Positions 9,007-31,180 of a stretch of DNA of 44,903 nucleotides are shown here, piece by piece. How positions within the stretch are numbered: the stretch's first letter is position 1; each line of letters begins with the position of its first letter. The position numbers and the translations under genes are program-made. This DNA is from an uncultured Chthonomonas sp. (GTDB lineage: Bacteria; Armatimonadota; Chthonomonadetes; Chthonomonadales; Chthonomonadaceae), in contig CAIONQ010000084.1 of assembly GCA_903859705.1 (NCBI GenBank), positions 1-44,903 of the forward strand. The letters are read 5' to 3'. Under the pieces are notes generated by a model. The model worked only from the letters and a program-made list of their open reading frames with translations, searched no databases and was not told where the DNA came from.

Positions 9007-9930
9007 TCAGTTTTGTGAGAGAAGTGCGGAAGCGCCGAGCTGTTTGAGCTGTGCTGCAACCGACAAGCCAAGCTGTTCGGCATTTGCACGATCACCGGAA
9101 CCTTCAGCCTTCACAAGCTGGAGACCATCTGCACTTGCCGCAAGTGCTTTGAGATGAACAGTGTTGCCAGAAACGGAAGCGAATGCTGCCAACGGCACCG
9201 AGCAACCCCCACCCATTGCTGCCAGTAAGGCTCGTTCGGCTCTAGTGCAGTCGGCAGTATCTGTGCAGTGAATAGATAGAAGCAGATCCAGCGTGGCGGT
9301 ATCCGTTGCGCGTGCTTCAATGGCAAGGGCTCCCTGGCCAACCGCCGGTAGGCAGATATCCGGGGACAGTTCTTCGGTAATGCGATTGCCTAAGCCCAGG
9401 CGGACCAAACCGGCACATGCGAGTAAGATGGCATCGTACTGACCTTCATCTAGTTTTCTCAGGCGCGTATCCAGGTTTCCGCGCAGTTCCATTACCTCAA
9501 GATCTGGCCGAACGGCCAGCATCTGTGCACGCCTTCTAGCGCTGCTTGTGCCAAGCTTCGCTCCCAGCGGCAGTTGCAGCAGGGTAGGGTACTTAACGCT
9601 TACAAAGGCATCCAGAGGGTTTACGCGTTGTGGTACGCAGCCCAAGGTGAGTCCTTCTGGGAGTTCGCCAGGCATATCCTTGAGACTATGCACGCCGATA
9701 TCGATACTGGTATCAAGCAGTGCCTGTTCTATCTCTTTTACGAACATGCCCTTTGTGCCAACACTGGCAAAAGGGCGATCTCGCTGCATATCGCCTGTTG
9801 TTTCGATAATGCGCGTTTCAAAATTGGTGTTTGGGTTGGCGGTTTCCAGGAGCCGGACAGTTTGCCCGGTTTGGGTAGTGGCGAGCAGTGAGCCGCGGGT
9901 GCCAACGATAATTCGGGAAGGGGGTGCCAT
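9007..9930 (-). CDS. hemC: Hydroxymethylbilane synthase (porphobilinogen deaminase)
   Basis: The enzyme polymerises four porphobilinogens into the linear tetrapyrrole used by HemD. Seen in the 307-residue sequence: GTRGSLLATTQ at 10-20, HSLKDMP with catalytic D85, the RRRAQ segment at 132-136, and C243 in GGGCSVPLAAF, which carries the dipyrromethane cofactor. Length is standard. It is the first haem gene of the run, after a strong hairpin that separates it from the lipoprotein gene. Confidence 0.97.
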   Translation of the reverse strand: MAPPSRIIVGTRGSLLATTQTGQTVRLLETANPNTNFETRIIETTGDMQRDRPFASVGTKGMFVKEIEQALLDTSIDIGVHSLKDMPGELPEGLTLGCVPQRVNPLDAFVSVKYPTLLQLPLGAKLGTSSARRRAQMLAVRPDLEVMELRGNLDTRLRKLDEGQYDAILLACAGLVRLGLGNRITEELSPDICLPAVGQGALAIEARATDTATLDLLLSIHCTDTADCTRAERALLAAMGGGCSVPLAAFASVSGNTVHLKALAASADGLQLVKAEGSGDRANAEQLGLSVAAQLKQLGASALLSQN

Positions 9931-9974
9931 GGTGCGTGCCTAAGGATCCAATCTATCGGGCATCCTGCAACAGG

Positions 9975-10005
9975 AACGGCCTGCCTTAAGCGCCGGCAGG
10001 CCGTT
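9975..10005. repeat. Strong hairpin between the lipoprotein gene and hemC
   Basis: AACGGCCTGCC (9975-9985) pairs perfectly with GGCAGGCCGTT (9995-10005), an 11-bp GC-rich stem with a 9-base loop. On the minus (coding) strand it is followed by CCTGTTGC rather than a U-tract. It could be a weak terminator, an attenuator or an mRNA-stabilising stem in front of the haem genes. Confidence 0.65.
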
Positions 10006-10024
10006 GGTGTTAAGCTGAGCCCTG

Positions 10025-11137
10025 TCAGTTCTTCTGTTTGGCTGGTTTCACAACCGTAAGGGTAGCCAATCCCCGGTTTCTGCTTACTACTAACAGCGGG
10101 TTGTACTGATATGGTCGCTGTGGATCCCACAGGCCAGCACCCGCAATGGCCGCTTCTGCATCCTTGCGGCGGCCGGGCTTTTCATGAATCGCTGCATATG
10201 CGAGGATCGTGATGGCCTGATCATCTGATCCAAATCGTTTATCTATTGTGATATCCGTTTCAAACAGATCACCCTGGGTTGGGTGTAGCTCCCATGTTTG
10301 GCCAGACTTGTGACGGGCCACGACGACTATATCCACATGTGGATCTGGCGGTATGGAGATAGATGCCTGCAGGTGAATAACTTGTCCAGGCTCTGCGAGG
10401 CTGGGAGCGAGGCGGACATGATTGAACTTGAGGTAGTTGGAATCGAACTTGGACGGTTGTTCGGTGCCGGCTACCGTTAGTTTAACCGGGTCCAGCCATG
10501 CTGCCATGGTGCGCCGTGATTTACCGCCGACTTTGATCTCTTCTGATTGCAGCCAGTAGATTTTGCCGACATCCACCATATCGTTAGAACTTGGGGCAAC
10601 CACCTTGATCATTACCGCACCGGGTTGATTGCGTTCTGCTTTAATAGCAGTGTGCCTTTTGCCAGGTGAGATCATGGAGAGTACTTTATCTGCGACTACT
10701 CCACCCGCTGCAACGCCACCCTTTGTTACTGGATCTGCGAAAGAGGCGCTTTCTGCAGCCGTAATGGCGTGAACTCCCTGGCGAACCGGGTCTGTAACAA
10801 AGCCAACGGTGTCTCCGCCGAAACGCGCTGCTGTGCCGATAACGGAAGCTATAAAACCGATGCTATGCTTCTCCAGATGCAGTGCACGCGGAGGAACGGC
10901 CAGCGCGTACTCCCCATTTTTATCTGTTTTGGCATAGTCCACAACCTTATTCTGGTCATCGTAGGCAGCAACAAGAGCTCCTGCCACGGGCTTTCCATCG
11001 GCGCTAAGGATGCGCCCGGTGGTCCAGATAGGTTCGTCGGCACACGCAACAAGGCTCGACGTTGCGATGCAGGCTGCAACGCCAGCAGTGATCATCTTCT
11101 GTGCAAACCACCGGTTGTGGAAGGGCTTAATTTTCAT
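10025..11137 (-). CDS. Predicted lipoprotein with an N-terminal carboxypeptidase-regulatory-like domain
   Basis: From ATG 11137 the protein has 370 residues. The N-terminus has a basic region, a hydrophobic core and the lipobox L-V-A-C at 29-32, so it should be lipid-anchored after export. Just after, about residues 38-85, is a transthyretin/CarboxypepD_reg-like beta domain (TTGRILSADGKPVAGALVAA ... TDKNGEYALAVPP). The rest is not a family I recognise; it has Gly/Ala-rich stretches and beta-rich segments. An in-frame ATG at 11152 is an alternative start. It lies 14 bases after the VKOR-thioredoxin gene and is co-directional, so it may be a client or partner of that disulfide system, which is inference. 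Confidence 0.75.
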   Translation of the reverse strand: MKIKPFHNRWFAQKMITAGVAACIATSSLVACADEPIWTTGRILSADGKPVAGALVAAYDDQNKVVDYAKTDKNGEYALAVPPRALHLEKHSIGFIASVIGTAARFGGDTVGFVTDPVRQGVHAITAAESASFADPVTKGGVAAGGVVADKVLSMISPGKRHTAIKAERNQPGAVMIKVVAPSSNDMVDVGKIYWLQSEEIKVGGKSRRTMAAWLDPVKLTVAGTEQPSKFDSNYLKFNHVRLAPSLAEPGQVIHLQASISIPPDPHVDIVVVARHKSGQTWELHPTQGDLFETDITIDKRFGSDDQAITILAYAAIHEKPGRRKDAEAAIAGAGLWDPQRPYQYNPLLVVSRNRGLATLTVVKPAKQKN

Positions 11138-24969: not shown

Positions 24970-24975
24970 CTTGTC

Positions 24976-25105
24976 GTTAACAGACCACGGGTTGAGTTAT
25001 TCTGCAGCCCACTTGGCCTCACCGCAGAGCCGCATACGAGACACTTTATGCCCGCCAGAGTTCGACACGCGGGTGAACGTGTATAGTTCAGGAAGGAACG
25101 CTGCG
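24976..25105 (+). promoter_or_regulatory. About 130-nt structured 5' leader of the NlpC/P60 gene
   Basis: The leader offers competing stems: CCCGC (25051-25055) with GCGGG (25068-25072), ACACG (25065-25069) with CGTGT (25078-25082), and GAAC (25075-25078) with GTTC (25086-25089), the last just before the Shine-Dalgarno AGGAAGGA. It does not match the ydaO (c-di-AMP) riboswitch consensus well. A regulatory role is inferred from length, structure and neighbours. Confidence 0.4.
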
Positions 25106-26095
25106 TTGTTATTCAACGGTTCAAAGCTAGGAATTTGCTGTGTTACGATGGCTGGTACGCTGCTATCAGGTGGCGCGGCCAACGCTTCGCACAAGCACAC
25201 CATGAAGCCTGGCGAAAACCTTTCCCACGTTGCTCGCAAGTACCACGTGGCAGTACAGGATATTGTACGGGCCAATCATCTTGAGGATTCTGATTCTCTT
25301 AAAGATGGCGTGGTTCTCACCATTCCAGATCCTGTAAAGCCAAAACTGGTTTCTGCAACAATGCATAAATCAGCCTCGGTGTTTGGTGATCGCATAAGCG
25401 TTAGGATGGGTCCTTCAGTCGATAGTCGCCGCGTCGAAATGTTCGATATGGGGGCGCCTCTTACAGTAACAGCTCTAAAGCAGGGTTGGTATCAGGTATC
25501 GCTGCAAGATGGCCGCAAGGGTTGGGTTCGGCAGGATTTTGTGAAGCTTGCTGGCGCGGTTCAGGTTGCCGCCAACAAGCACACACCTATTAAGCTTTCT
25601 CATGCAAAGTCCCACAGCGAAACGGCATCGCATCGCCGCCATGTGCTTAAGGGGCATCTTGCTCACAATAGTTCTTCTCGTCGAAATGGCCACAGCGGAA
25701 GGGTAACTTCAGCGCATGTGCCAGCAAACGCGGATATCGTGCGAACTGCCATTGCGTATCGTGGTACGCCGTACCATTATGGCGGCACAGGCAGATCCGG
25801 GTTTGATTGTTCTGGTTTCACGAGCTACATCTATGGTAAGAAGGGTGTGTCTCTGCCACATAATGCAGCGGCTCAGTTTTCTCATGGTTCTCGTGTTTCT
25901 AAGGGTGAGTTGAAGCCGGGAGATCTCGTGTTTTTCCACTGTGGCCGAAGGGGGATATCTCATGTGGGTATCTTCGTTGGAAACGGTAAGTTCGTGCACG
26001 CGTCCAGCCCGCACTCAGGCGGTGTACGCGTGGACAGTTTGAATAGTGGCTACTATAAGAGCACATATCGCGGTGCTCGTCGTGTAAAAAAATGA
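25106..26095 (+). CDS. Secreted LysM-SH3-NlpC/P60 peptidoglycan hydrolase
   Basis: This is a cell-wall endopeptidase of the D,L-endopeptidase type. With TTG 25106 (AAGGA at 8 bases) it has 329 residues. A short signal peptide ends ANAS near 28. LysM is at about 31-76 (HTMKPGENLSHVARKYHV). A bacterial SH3 domain at about 90-150 has RMGPS and GWYQVSLQDGRKGWV. A His/Ser/Arg-rich linker covers 155-205, then NlpC/P60 at about 208-325. The catalytic residues are C235 in FDCSGF, H286 in SHVGIF and H298 in FVHASS. The frame stays open upstream to 24971, but that position is at the promoter's transcription start. The divergent neighbour makes c-di-AMP. Confidence 0.92.
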   Translation: MLFNGSKLGICCVTMAGTLLSGGAANASHKHTMKPGENLSHVARKYHVAVQDIVRANHLEDSDSLKDGVVLTIPDPVKPKLVSATMHKSASVFGDRISVRMGPSVDSRRVEMFDMGAPLTVTALKQGWYQVSLQDGRKGWVRQDFVKLAGAVQVAANKHTPIKLSHAKSHSETASHRRHVLKGHLAHNSSSRRNGHSGRVTSAHVPANADIVRTAIAYRGTPYHYGGTGRSGFDCSGFTSYIYGKKGVSLPHNAAAQFSHGSRVSKGELKPGDLVFFHCGRRGISHVGIFVGNGKFVHASSPHSGGVRVDSLNSGYYKSTYRGARRVKK

Positions 26096-26127
26096 CGACC
26101 CGGGTGGCTCTAATGCTGTGTGTGCAT

Positions 26128-26263: not shown

Positions 26264-27157
26264 ATGAATGCATGGAGCAAACGCATGGCCCGGGCCTCGG
26301 CTTCGCTGGCGCTGCTGCGTACGGTAGGCACGCTTGCCGCTGTAACAATTGTGCTGGTTGGCGCCAGCGGTTCGGCATCTGCTCGAGAGAAATTTCTGGA
26401 TCAGTTTAAGCAGGTTTACACCACAATGAAATCCGGTGGAAACCTGGATAATGCCTCTTGTGACCTGTGTCACCTAAACGGTCCGCCCAAACTGAACAAA
26501 TATGGAGTATCGGTGAAGGCGGCGCTGGAAAAAGCGAATGCCAAGGATGTTACCGCGGATGTACTACATTCTATTGAGGCTTTAGACTCCGATGGTGATG
26601 GTTTTTCTAACGGTGAAGAGATAACCGCGGACACTTTGCCTGGTGATGAGAAGAGCCACCCGGCCGGAGCACCAAAAGTTGCTGCCAAGCCGGTTTCTGC
26701 TTCTGAATCTCATGAGCCGAGCCCGTTCGATGTTGTTGGTGCTATCAAAGCGAAACATGCTCAGCACCCGATTATTGTTCACTTCCCAATTGGCCTGTTT
26801 ATGGCGAGCCTTTTGTTTGATATTCTTGCCCGACTAAAGAAGAACGAAGGCTTAAACGCTGCGGCGTACTACAACATCGTTTTCTCGGCAATTACCGGTG
26901 TGGCTTCGGTAATTTCGGGAATAGTTTGCTGGCAGTGGAAGCTTGCCGGTGATCCGCTGGTTGGTAATCTTAAGCTGCACCTCATTCTTGGCATCGTCAC
27001 GAGCGTGCTGATGTTTGTGCTGTGGGGTGTAAGGAAGAGCCAGACGAAGAAGATTACGGATCCTGTTACCATTGGCTATCTTATTCTGGCGTTAATTACC
27101 GTAGTAATCATCGCGCTTACTGGCCATGTTGGAGGCATCCTTAGCGGAGTTGTTTGA
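26264..27157 (+). CDS. Membrane protein with CxxCH haem motif, calcium-type loop and DUF2231 domain
   Basis: The start ATG has GGGAGGG at 8 bases and gives 297 residues. An N-terminal export signal (about 12-40, ending SASA) is followed by a short extracytoplasmic segment with C66-D-L-C-H70, a c-type haem attachment motif. About 40 residues later comes DSDGDGFSNGEE (108-119), a thrombospondin-3/EF-hand-like calcium loop. After a Pro/Ala/His linker, residues about 158-297 form a four-helix DUF2231 domain: HPIIVHFPIGLFMASLLFD, then LKLHLILG, and GHVGG at the end. DUF2231 is a predicted membrane redox/haem-type domain of unknown function. The architecture suggests electron transfer across or along the membrane; this is inference. 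Confidence 0.85.
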   Translation: MNAWSKRMARASASLALLRTVGTLAAVTIVLVGASGSASAREKFLDQFKQVYTTMKSGGNLDNASCDLCHLNGPPKLNKYGVSVKAALEKANAKDVTADVLHSIEALDSDGDGFSNGEEITADTLPGDEKSHPAGAPKVAAKPVSASESHEPSPFDVVGAIKAKHAQHPIIVHFPIGLFMASLLFDILARLKKNEGLNAAAYYNIVFSAITGVASVISGIVCWQWKLAGDPLVGNLKLHLILGIVTSVLMFVLWGVRKSQTKKITDPVTIGYLILALITVVIIALTGHVGGILSGVV

Positions 27158-27380: not shown

Positions 27381-28697
27381 ATGAACCGCAGACAGTTTCT
27401 GAGAGACGCCGCATCCCTTTCTGTTACCACGGCCGCAGCCGGTAGCACTCTGGGTACGCGTGCTCTCGCAATCTCGCAGCAGGCCGGCGCCAAGGTCATC
27501 GATCCAGATGATCCGCATGATCCGCCCGTAGTCTGCGCCGTAATTGGAGCCAACTTGCAGGGTCGCGAAATCCTGACTTCGCTGGCAAAAATGGGTAAGT
27601 ATGCCCCGGTTGCGTATGTGTGCGACACCTTTGCTCAAGCAGGTTTCGACAAACGCTGGAAGGCAATCGTACCGGATGCGAAGTACACTGCCGATTACCG
27701 CAAGGTTTTGGACGATAAGTCTGTACAGGCTGTGTTTATCGCAACTCCATCGTATAAGCATAAGCAGATTGTTCTGGATGCAATTGCAGCCGGAAAGCAT
27801 GTTTACTGCGAAGCTCCTCTTGCCAATGACCTTGAAGAAGCCAGGGCCATTGCCGTGGCCGGTAAGGGTGCAAAGACAGCATTCCAATCTGGACTTATCC
27901 AGCGCAACAACAAGCAGCACAGGCATGTGCTTAAATTTGTGCGCGGCGGAGATCTGGGCCATCTTAGTGGGGGGCATGCACAGTGGCACAAGCGCACCTC
28001 ATGGCGGTTCCCGTGGCAGGATGCTGATAGGGAAAAGGATCTAAACTGGCGCCTTAATGCCGAAACTTCTACCGGCTTAATTGGCGAAATTGGTATTCAC
28101 CAGTTGGATACTGCAAGCTGGTTCTTCAAATCACTCCCGATTGCTGTTTCTGGCCGCGGATCCGTTCACGAATATGTGGATGGACGCACAGTGCCGGATA
28201 CAGTCAGCTGTATGCTTGAGTATCCTAAGAACCTGAATTTCTCTTACTCGGCAACTCTGACCAACGGATACGACGAGGCTTTTGAAGTATTTACGGGATC
28301 TGCGTGCGCTATTGAACTGCGCGACCTGCGTGCCTGGATGTACAAAGAAGCCGATAGCCCTGTGCTTGGCTGGGAAGTATTTGCACGTAAAGACGACATG
28401 GTTATTGGCGATGTAAAAGCTGGCACTGGACTACGCATTGCAACGGGCATTGCTCTTGTTGCCGATGCTACCAAGCAGCTTGCAATTGGAAAACAGCCTG
28501 GCGCCGTTGGAACAGACCTTACGAAAACAGCCCTTTATCAGGCGGTTACCGATTTCCTGAATGCAATTCGCGATAACAAGAAGCCCGAAGTTGGCCCTGA
28601 AGAAGGCTTTCAGGCCACTGTAGTAGCCCACAAGGCGAACGAGGCTGTTGTTTCTGGTACGCGCATTGAGTTCAAGAAGGAATGGTTTACACTGTAG
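27381..28697 (+). CDS. Tat-exported Gfo/Idh/MocA-family oxidoreductase (EAP variant)
   Basis: This NAD(P)-dependent sugar or cyclitol oxidoreductase fold has 438 residues. It begins with a twin-arginine signal, N-RRQFLRDAA at 2-10, then an Ala/Gly/Thr-rich region ending ALA. The Rossmann motif is VIGANLQGREILTSL near 53-67. The family EKP motif reads CEAPLAND, with Ala in place of the conserved Lys; this is known in some Tat-type members. The C-terminal half carries GEIGIHQLDTASWF and the GFO_IDH_MocA_C beta sheet. It starts with AGGAA at 11 bases. The paralogue follows 69 bases later, so they probably act together in the cell envelope on a carbohydrate. Confidence 0.92.
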   Translation: MNRRQFLRDAASLSVTTAAAGSTLGTRALAISQQAGAKVIDPDDPHDPPVVCAVIGANLQGREILTSLAKMGKYAPVAYVCDTFAQAGFDKRWKAIVPDAKYTADYRKVLDDKSVQAVFIATPSYKHKQIVLDAIAAGKHVYCEAPLANDLEEARAIAVAGKGAKTAFQSGLIQRNNKQHRHVLKFVRGGDLGHLSGGHAQWHKRTSWRFPWQDADREKDLNWRLNAETSTGLIGEIGIHQLDTASWFFKSLPIAVSGRGSVHEYVDGRTVPDTVSCMLEYPKNLNFSYSATLTNGYDEAFEVFTGSACAIELRDLRAWMYKEADSPVLGWEVFARKDDMVIGDVKAGTGLRIATGIALVADATKQLAIGKQPGAVGTDLTKTALYQAVTDFLNAIRDNKKPEVGPEEGFQATVVAHKANEAVVSGTRIEFKKEWFTL

Positions 28698-28766: not shown

Positions 28767-30149
28767 ATGAGTGAGATCAACGATAACGCAGGCAGCACGC
28801 GCCGCGAGCTTCTACAGAAGTCGGCCGTTACGGTAGCTGCTGGAGTTGCCGCCACAACCGTTAGCCATATGCCCGCAACGGCAGAAGGAATGGCTCGGGT
28901 AATCGGTGCAAACGATCGTATTAATGTGGGCCATATTGGCATCGGCGTTCAGGGCACCCTGCATCTTCGCCTGATCAAAGAGAACTCGAAAGAGGGCCTC
29001 ACGAACAACACCGATCAGATCGGCGTTTGTGACATCTACACCCGTGCTCGTAAGGGTGGACAGGCAACGCTCGGTATTAAAGACAGCCAGACCTACGATG
29101 ACCATCGTAAACTGCTGGAAAACAAAGATATCGATGCAGTGTGGGTAACCACTTCTGATCAGTGGCATGCTCCTATCACCATTGATGCCGTTCAGGCTGG
29201 CAAGCATGTATACTGCGAAAAGCCGATGACCCGAACCATCGAAGAAGCCTTTGCGGTATTCGATGCGGTGAAGAAGAGCGGTAAGATCTTCCAGATTGGT
29301 TCTCAGGGCACTTCCGATGGCAAACATCATGCGGTTGGTGCGATGGTTAAGTCTGGCAAAATCGGCAAGCTGATTGTTGGCCAGGACAGCTACTGCCGCG
29401 CAGACAACAAAAAGGGCGAGTGGAACGATTATCGTAAGATCGATCCCGATGCTGCTCCTACCGCCTCTGGGGATGCATTCATCAACTGGGATGTTTTCTG
29501 CAAGGGTAAGAAGACCCCGTGGGACCCGGATCGCTTCTTCCACTGGCGCAAATGGTGGGACTACGGTTCAGGCCTGATGGGTGATCTGCTTCCCCACCGC
29601 TTGCACCCACTTATGTACGCGATGGCTATTCCGCTTGAGGGCGAGGGCGGTTTCCCGCAGCGTGTTTCTTCTACCGGTGGTCTGTACGTGCAGAAGATCA
29701 ACCCTGCAAGTGGCAAGCCCGATCGTGAAGTTCCTGACTTCATGAACCTGATGGTTGATTTTGGTGATTTCTCGCTCATGGCGATGACCTCCTGCGTAAC
29801 CGAGCAGGGCTGGCCTTCTATGATCCGTGGTAATAAGGCAACTATTGTTTACAATGGTGGCAATATCGAGCTTAAGCCAGAACATAACTACACAGACGAA
29901 ATTGATGGCGATAGCACCCCGGCACCTGGCCCAACGGAAGACATACGTATCCACGAAAAGAACTTCCTGGATTGTATCCGCTCTAACAAGCCAACCAATG
30001 GTAACATCGATCTTGCTACACGCGTTCAGGTAATGGTATCTCTCGGTGAGCTCTCTTATCGCCAGGGGCATACGTATCACTTCAATGCTAAAACACGCTC
30101 CTACGGCACGTCTCCAATCACGGCGTCAGCCCCGGGCAAGAAGGCCTGA
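28767..30149 (+). CDS. Tat-exported Gfo/Idh/MocA-family oxidoreductase (EKP form)
   Basis: This 460-residue relative of the upstream gene has a twin-arginine signal at 11-18 (TRRELLQKSA), followed by an Ala/Val/Thr region ending ATAEG. The Rossmann motif is IGIGVQGTLHL. The intact family motif YCEKPMTRT holds the conserved Lys. The middle of the protein has DPDRFFHWRKWWDYGSGLMGDLLPHRLHP, characteristic of secreted-type members. AAAGGAG lies 10 bases before ATG. The pair ends at a strong terminator. The substrate is likely a sugar or sugar derivative; no sugar transporter or glycosidase is directly attached. Confidence 0.93.
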   Translation: MSEINDNAGSTRRELLQKSAVTVAAGVAATTVSHMPATAEGMARVIGANDRINVGHIGIGVQGTLHLRLIKENSKEGLTNNTDQIGVCDIYTRARKGGQATLGIKDSQTYDDHRKLLENKDIDAVWVTTSDQWHAPITIDAVQAGKHVYCEKPMTRTIEEAFAVFDAVKKSGKIFQIGSQGTSDGKHHAVGAMVKSGKIGKLIVGQDSYCRADNKKGEWNDYRKIDPDAAPTASGDAFINWDVFCKGKKTPWDPDRFFHWRKWWDYGSGLMGDLLPHRLHPLMYAMAIPLEGEGGFPQRVSSTGGLYVQKINPASGKPDREVPDFMNLMVDFGDFSLMAMTSCVTEQGWPSMIRGNKATIVYNGGNIELKPEHNYTDEIDGDSTPAPGPTEDIRIHEKNFLDCIRSNKPTNGNIDLATRVQVMVSLGELSYRQGHTYHFNAKTRSYGTSPITASAPGKKA

Positions 30150-30241: not shown

Positions 30242-31180
30242 ATGCAGGGCACGTATCGGCATAGTATAAGGGCGATGAATACCGAGTGGGAGTTTCAGCT
30301 TTGTGGCACGAACCCGGTGTTTCTTAGAGGCGTTGCTGAAGATGCCGCAGGCGAGGTTTTTCGCCTGGATGGCCAGCTTAGTCTGTTTGAAGCAACCAGT
30401 GAAACTTCAGATGTTAACCGTAATTCGGGCACTGGGCCTGTAGTTGTAGATCGCCGTTTTTTTTACTTGCTGCAGCGTGCAAAACAGTATTCTCAGGTTA
30501 CCAATGGCGCTTTTGATATTACGGTAGCGCCCCTTATGCGGGCCTGGAAGCTGCAAGGAGGGCAGGGGGCCGTACCAACTGATGACGAGGTACAGGCGGC
30601 ACTTTCGCTTACGGGCAGCCACATGCTACATCTGGATGATACTGCTTACACCGTATTTCTGGAACGCGAAGGAATGAGTATTGATCTCGGGGCAATTGGG
30701 AAGGGGTACGCAATTGATTGTGCCTCTGCTCTTGTAACCGATTATGGTGTGGAAGCAGCGCTGCTGCACAGCGGATCCAGTACTGTATACGGAATTGGAT
30801 GTACGCTTGAGGGCGATCCCTGGAAGGTTCAGGTTAAACTGCCTCAGGCGCCTGGAGCCTGGGGTGAATCAGAGACCGTGGTTTTCCAACTAAGTAACCG
30901 AGCGTTGAGTGTTTCTGCGCCGCATGGAAAATGGTTTGAGCGGGATGGTGTTCGGTACGGTCATGTGATGGACTCAAGCACGGGTAGGCCAGTGCAGGGC
31001 AGTTTGCTGGCAGCTGTTTCCGTAGGGAGCGCCGAGGTGAGCGATGCGCTTTCTACCGCTTTATTGGGAGCAGGCAAATCGCTGCTTCCTTCCCTTGTTA
31101 AGTTCTATCCGGATCTGCAGGCTGTTGTTGTAGATATGGAAGACGATGAGGTAACAGTTACAACCGTAGGTATACCGTGA
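30242..31180 (+). CDS. apbE: FAD:protein FMN transferase (ApbE family)
   Basis: ApbE attaches FMN covalently to Thr/Ser of target flavoproteins, usually on the outer side of the membrane. The 312-residue chain has the family features: AMNTEWEFQL near the start, LSLFEATSETSDVNRN, GAFDITVAPLMRAWK, DLGAIGKGYAID, and the metal-binding HVMDSSTGRPVQG with VSDALSTALL. There is no clear signal peptide or lipobox, so location is uncertain. No FMN-binding-domain target, Nqr or Rnf subunit is in the window. The start is ATG 30242; ATG 30275 is a possible shorter start. Confidence 0.93.
   Translation: MQGTYRHSIRAMNTEWEFQLCGTNPVFLRGVAEDAAGEVFRLDGQLSLFEATSETSDVNRNSGTGPVVVDRRFFYLLQRAKQYSQVTNGAFDITVAPLMRAWKLQGGQGAVPTDDEVQAALSLTGSHMLHLDDTAYTVFLEREGMSIDLGAIGKGYAIDCASALVTDYGVEAALLHSGSSTVYGIGCTLEGDPWKVQVKLPQAPGAWGESETVVFQLSNRALSVSAPHGKWFERDGVRYGHVMDSSTGRPVQGSLLAAVSVGSAEVSDALSTALLGAGKSLLPSLVKFYPDLQAVVVDMEDDEVTVTTVGIP

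Follow-up and report, generated by a model that had tools for sequence, protein, structure and literature searches.

A putative c-type haem domain fused to DUF2231 in an uncultured Chthonomonas sp. suggests a membrane-anchored electron-transfer protein

The window, i.e. the whole stretch of DNA that was analysed, comprises 44,903 nucleotides from an uncultured Chthonomonas sp. On its forward strand, an ORF of 297 codons begins with an ATG at 26264, ends with a stop codon at 27155-27157, and codes for a predicted signal peptide, a putative haem-c domain, a linker and DUF2231 (Table 1). An alternative GTG start at 26120, corresponding to a protein of 345 residues, was set aside because, in our reading, the ATG results in a normal signal peptide. 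The prediction of this peptide is based on a hydrophobic stretch at residues 22-36 and on A40, which is conserved to at least 90% in the alignment of 31 fusion proteins. The layout given in the initial annotation, namely a C66-DLCH motif followed about 40 residues later by a loop and then by a complete four-helix DUF2231 domain, was recovered. The loop begins 42 residues past C66, and the Pfam match to DUF2231 (E 3.7e-20, 72.8 bits versus a cut-off of 26.4) covers positions 2-129 of the 139 model positions. Four hydrophobic stretches (residues 174-185, 205-219, 239-250 and 273-290) lie downstream of the signal-like one. The genome encodes this single DUF2231.

Table 1. Features of the haem-DUF2231 locus. 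Positions refer to the window; residues are those of the 297-residue protein.
Feature	Position	Strand	Remarks
LysM-SH3-NlpC/P60 cell-wall hydrolase	24971-26095	+	start uncertain; in 8/9 family loci
CDS, 297 aa: signal peptide, haem-c domain (putative), linker, DUF2231	26264-27157	+	
Predicted signal peptide, residues 1-40 (SGSASA/REKF)	26264-26383	+	cleavage site placed by eye
Temptin_C-like c-type haem domain (putative), residues 41-136	26384-26671	+	
C66-D-L-C-H70, putative haem-c attachment motif	26459-26473	+	invariant in homologues
D108-SDGDGFSNGEE119, calcium-type loop (TSP3-like; DSDGDGFSNGEE loop at 108)	26585-26620	+	PF18884 E 4e-4, below cut-off
Linker, residues 124-163	26633-26752	+	low conservation, variable length
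DUF2231 (PF09990), residues 165-293	26756-27142	+	four TM helices predicted, both termini outside
H168, TM1, predicted periplasmic side	26765-26767	+	H in 91/93 DUF2231, 2 gaps, 0 substitutions
H173, TM1	26780-26782	+	H in 41/41 c-haem-fused, 0/9 Rieske-fused, 24/40 unfused
H239, TM3, predicted periplasmic side	26978-26980	+	H in 93/93 DUF2231
H288, TM4 end	27125-27127	+	H in 28/31 N-haem fusions; mostly Y, W or H in the other proteins
Gfo/Idh/MocA oxidoreductase A, Tat-type RR motif	27381-28697	+	PF01408 1.6e-15; 7/9 family loci
Gfo/Idh/MocA oxidoreductase B, Tat-type RR motif	28767-30149	+	PF01408 2.3e-22; 7/9 loci
ApbE family (FMN transferase)	30242-31180	+	PF02424 8.6e-60; 5/9 family loci

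A search with the whole protein in 61 genomes gave matches in 40. Within the family, 17 genomes were covered, including the own one, and 14 of them possess the fusion; the three genomes of genus g2 are without the protein. Lack of conservation among homologues, which the initial annotation had named as an argument against its proposed c-type haem, was not seen. CxxCH is kept in all 31 fusion homologues (alignment A1), whose mean column identity is 26%, and C66, C69 and H70 belong to the 12 invariant columns, together with N78, G81, G113, H168, H173, F174, P175, G219 and H239. Because these 31 rows had been picked for a CxxCH upstream of DUF2231, the test was redone with a model of the N-terminal domain in which the CxxCH columns were masked, and which was run on 6,478 ORFs from 183 sequences. 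It yielded 61 distinct matches with CxxCH, i.e. 61/61 of those that cover the motif region. Twelve further matches are without CxxCH; none of them spans this region, as eleven comprise the Ca loop only and one ends at a contig end. The conservation of CxxCH is not a matter of chance.

The cytochrome c assembly protein PF01578 is encoded in 29/29 fusion genomes versus 164/201 genomes overall, a comparison that is weakened by the relatedness of the genomes. In the own genome, a CcmC-like gene and CcmF form one cluster, which qualifies as a maturation system; ResB was not found in this genome, which also encodes cytochrome b and a haem-copper oxidase. With an exported CxxCH that is conserved among homologues, the protein has the hallmarks of a c-type cytochrome. 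Since the motif is invariant and Ccm genes are present, we infer a haem bound to C66 and C69 with H70 as a ligand. Besides CxxCH, the haem domain possesses no invariant Met, His, Lys or Cys in the 31-fusion alignment; a distal ligand is therefore not apparent, and the haem may be five-coordinate. A class-I cytochrome c domain (PF00034/PF13442) was not recognized, with no Pfam match at E values up to 1 and no conserved Met.

One of the named families close to the N-terminal part is NCBIfam NF041762 (GEGP motif-containing diheme), whose model positions 41-124 match residues 56-136 (E 7.6e-12). The match covers about a quarter of the model, stops before DUF2231 and reaches 45.1 bits versus a cut-off of 300; moreover, the model has two haem motifs, whereas this protein has one CxxCH. 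Matches to diheme_GEGP were found for 27 of the 31 fusion proteins. For Temptin_C (PF24784), the 297-residue protein itself scores 13.3 bits versus a cut-off of 27 (E 0.12), and the link to this family therefore runs via relatives that exceed the cut-off. Nine of the ten rows of A3, an alignment of this protein with relatives from other phyla, match Temptin_C at E ≤0.05, and six of the seven matching rows that were scanned singly (L002, L008, L014, L016, L021 and L022) pass the cut-off. With Temptin_C, the N-terminal domain studied here shares the order N-x-[YF]-G and then DSDGDGxxNGxE. Temptin_C is named after a mollusc pheromone. A comparison of bacterial members suggests that bacterial CxxCH proteins are linked to this family, and such relatives would pose the question of whether Temptin_C originated from a haem protein. 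A literature search joining temptin and cytochrome gave nothing relevant.

The N-terminal domain also occurs alone in sister families, often in tandem. In four of eight loci (L176, L177, L178 and L179, with L176 and L179 sharing one genus), the free copies are close to an ORF with 6-8 CxxCH motifs. Together with the conservation and the assembly genes, these multihaem neighbours support a covalent haem-c site at CDLCH, where haem is presumably bound. Several genomes with free copies are without any DUF2231, which means that the domain is not dependent on DUF2231. Three of the free haem-c/Ca-loop copies near such ORFs lie at L176:4619-4969, L177:5033-5650 and L178:4498-4878.

CxxCH and the DSDGDG loop are thus two parts of one domain and not separate motifs. 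The loop is also found in copies of the N-terminal domain without attached DUF2231, it is gone in 5 of the 31 fusions that retain CxxCH (L030, L034, L039, L103 and L105), and the linker behind it varies greatly in length. On these grounds, a role of Ca2+ in stabilising the junction of haem domain and DUF2231, as put forward in the initial annotation, was rejected. A thrombospondin-3 loop in the sense of a proper domain did not hold either: residues 108-123 match TSP3_bac (PF18884) with 20.6 bits versus a cut-off of 25 (E 4e-4). Literature searches combining cytochrome c, thrombospondin type 3 and calcium gave nothing relevant. A group of Akkermansia and Roseibacillus proteins (L005-L007, L009-L012, L015, L018-L020) has only the DSDGDGFSNGEE loop region in common with this protein; they probably belong to the Amuc_1099 family, which the 297-residue protein matches in NCBIfam.

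A survey of the phylum located DUF2231 at 118 places in 90 of 201 genomes. From the loci of both searches and 60 stretches, 95 distinct DUF2231 ORFs were classed, with about two dozen places left out and two weak ones (L138, L139), which the model did not recognize, dropped. An N-terminal haem domain occurs in 31 of these ORFs, a C-terminal cytochrome c in 10 and a C-terminal Rieske domain in 9; 40 have no recognised partner, 3 possess a long C-terminal part and 2 were set aside. Pfam confirmed the cytochrome c partner (PF00034 above cut-off) in 4/4 scanned proteins (L094, L102, L112, L118) and the Rieske partner (PF00355) in 3/3 (L065, L097, L126); unscanned fusions were classed by motif. Matches to Rieske plus DUF2231 were also found in Streptomyces and Kitasatospora plasmids. 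In a tree of the 95 domains, which is based on 133 columns and has many weak forks, the N-terminal haem fusions form one clade (support 96/98) and the cytochrome c fusions another (98/86), and the Rieske fusions require three changes. This topology indicates that redox partners were joined to DUF2231 more than once. One genome nested in the N-haem clade has a DUF2231 without haem domain (L104), which represents a loss.

The two other fusion types resemble the protein studied here in their four-helix domain. The Rieske proteins keep H168 and H239, and their redox domain follows TM4 on the predicted periplasmic side; they differ in that the iron-sulphur centre is C-terminal, whereas the haem is N-terminal here, and in that H173 is replaced (in the nine fusions, Asp in five and one gap). 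The proteins with a C-terminal class-I cytochrome c likewise have a c-type haem joined to DUF2231 and keep H168, H173 and H239, but their haem domain is located at the opposite end, stems from a different family and contains an MP motif, which is typical of a Met ligand. The occurrence of three different carrier domains, at either end and in separate clades, supports a role of DUF2231 in electron transfer, as proposed in the initial annotation; the domain is probably an electron-transfer part of these proteins. In L073, L081 and L101, which are long proteins, DUF2231 comes first and is followed by CPMHP-type metal-binding motifs; both of those scanned have an HMBD match. DUF4079 was considered as a bridge to known b-cytochromes and was discarded, given a weak match in L094 (0.0012) and too few members in the phylum for a comparison (1/101 genomes).

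Residue counts were based on 93 DUF2231 ORFs, excluding L032, which is cut at a contig end, and L104 due to its missing haem domain. In these ORFs, H168 and H239 are never substituted. The correlation of H173 with the partner tracks the clades and is thus no more than suggestive. In the mean of 31 sequences, the loop after TM1 contains 3.5 Lys/Arg residues, the loop after TM3 3.7, the TM2-TM3 loop 0.9 and the C-terminus none. According to the positive-inside rule, both termini are thus predicted to be outside, and H168, H173, H239 and H288 on the periplasmic side. This computed topology places the haem, cytochrome c and Rieske domains on the same side as the histidines of DUF2231. An invariant pair of histidines on two helices near one membrane face would be what a haem b or a metal site needs. 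A full-length AlphaFold model, which was based on a 10-row alignment of relatives of the N-terminal domain only, reached a pLDDT of 59.7 and was too poor for reading the haem space; with a model of DUF2231 only, computed without alignment (pLDDT 61.5), the H168-H239 distance was not readable. For these low-pLDDT models, Foldseek gave no match in the PDB at E 1e-3 or better. Sequence searches of the PDB gave no significant match for A1 (best 0.031, with mostly calmodulin loops) or A3 (best 0.026), and a deeper alignment with DUF2231 relatives from viral contigs was not obtained.

In nine loci of the family that were compared, the recurrent gene order is NlpC/P60 - haem-DUF2231 - Gfo/Idh A - Gfo/Idh B - ApbE; five other fusion-bearing genomes of the family were left out, and the second Gfo/Idh gene is cut in L146. 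Gfo/Idh A is likely to be in the same operon as the haem-DUF2231 gene, and the LysM-SH3-NlpC/P60 neighbour is probably outside the redox unit. A twin-arginine motif at the start of the Gfo/Idh proteins was matched by a regular expression in 12 of 13 rows, the exception being protein A of L151, which begins with MDRRDFF. Given these starts, the Gfo/Idh proteins probably reside in the periplasm, where the haem domain is also predicted to lie. Genome context suggests that the cytochrome serves the co-encoded Gfo/Idh oxidoreductases. Literature searches on periplasmic MocA oxidoreductases, 3-keto products and cytochrome gave nothing relevant. Flavinylation of a partner in the operon by ApbE was set aside, though not rejected: neither the Gfo/Idh nor the ApbE rows contain what we take to be the flavinylation motif pattern, and the genome is without an FMN_bind protein (PF04205). 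ApbE is retained in the operon despite the lack of such a protein. In L150, a cytochrome b that ends in a cytochrome c domain (9339-10700) adjoins a Rieske gene near the haem-DUF2231 gene.

Considering these findings, we regard it as fairly probable that the protein is a membrane-anchored, periplasm-facing monohaem c-type cytochrome, whose DUF2231 is a redox module with its own cofactor at the histidine pair. Sec export would be followed by covalent attachment of the haem, with H70 acting as proximal ligand, and the haem domain would be carried on the flexible linker above the four-helix DUF2231. H168 of TM1 and H239 of TM3 would hold the cofactor of DUF2231, for which a single haem b or a quinol site is the most likely choice. 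DUF2231 would then swap electrons with a carrier at the periplasmic face, either fused or docked. In this protein, the carrier would be the Temptin_C-like haem-c domain; in others, it would be a Rieske centre or a cytochrome c of class I. In this family, judging from gene order, the likely use would be to connect the respiratory chain with the two co-encoded Gfo/Idh oxidoreductases of the Tat type. Counted against this explanation are the lack of a conserved distal ligand, the loss in L104, the 40 unfused domains among 95, the 2/9 family loci without the Gfo/Idh pair, the metal-handling neighbours in L154 and L155 and the absence of the protein from genus g2. A narrower version, which we put forward tentatively and with considerable doubt, is that DUF2231 represents an unrecognised redox module of minimal size in the membrane: its four helices would form a bundle that holds either one haem b at H168/H239 on the periplasmic side or a quinol site, and electrons would pass to one of the three carrier types, each acquired separately. 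If true, the fusions would be miniature single-chain quinol:acceptor oxidoreductases.

Several of the same observations could be read differently. The periplasmic histidines of DUF2231 might bind a metal such as copper instead of haem b, with the haem-c domain supplying or removing electrons for metal reduction or handling. The main support comes from L154 and L155 of another family, where no Gfo/Idh pair is found and the fusion gene adjoins a gene for a YHS/TRASH/YtkA protein, near other metal-handling genes and an ORF with a CASCV start of the metal-ATPase type; the unfused form in L104 sits between similar genes, and in the three DUF2231 proteins with long C-terminal parts an HMBD match was obtained for 2/2 scanned, one of them above cut-off. 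However, loci of the type found in the window are mostly without metal genes (an ATPase-like ORF is near in L150 and L151), and the Rieske and class-I cytochrome c fusions indicate electron transfer as such; we consider metal binding unlikely. The same applies to the assumption that DUF2231 is a mere membrane anchor without cofactor, which leaves all redox work to the fused or docked domain. The 40 unfused domains among 95, the varying partners and the fact that the cofactor of DUF2231 is an inferred one agree with an anchor, but a bare anchor would not need H168 and H239 to be unsubstituted in 93 proteins that otherwise share little identity, including unfused ones. DUF2231 is best read as a redox module and not as a mere anchor.

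As to the N-terminal domain, CxxCH might form a disulfide or bind a metal in an extracellular, Temptin-like domain instead of binding haem. Although the Temptin_C matches of relatives, the missing distal ligand and the loss in L104 would fit, we give this little credence: all three residues of the motif are strictly retained, Ccm-type genes occur in every fusion genome, free copies have multihaem neighbours and the related NCBI family is named diheme. It is highly improbable that the protein is a haem-based sensor with a five-coordinate haem c instead of an electron carrier. The sixth ligand is not conserved, as a sensor would allow, but there is no fused signalling domain and the other partners of DUF2231 are electron carriers.

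In the literature searched, DUF2231 is nearly unstudied, yet it occurs in 90 of the 201 genomes of the phylum. Full-text searches on DUF2231, PF09990 and COG4244 gave only listings of the domain. In the available text of one source it is listed under 'electron transport chain' via a remote-homology database (PMC12828279), and in that of another PF09990 is merely listed (PMC3879021); the main text of PMC4520260, as far as it is available, holds no mention of DUF2231. Should H168/H239 of DUF2231 prove to hold a cofactor, what now count as 'unknown membrane proteins' would form a family of electron-transfer modules. On a plasmid of Spirosoma oryzicola (L182:3980-4480), an unfused DUF2231 follows a ferritin-like gene, and subunit I of a cbb3-type oxidase is encoded two genes on.
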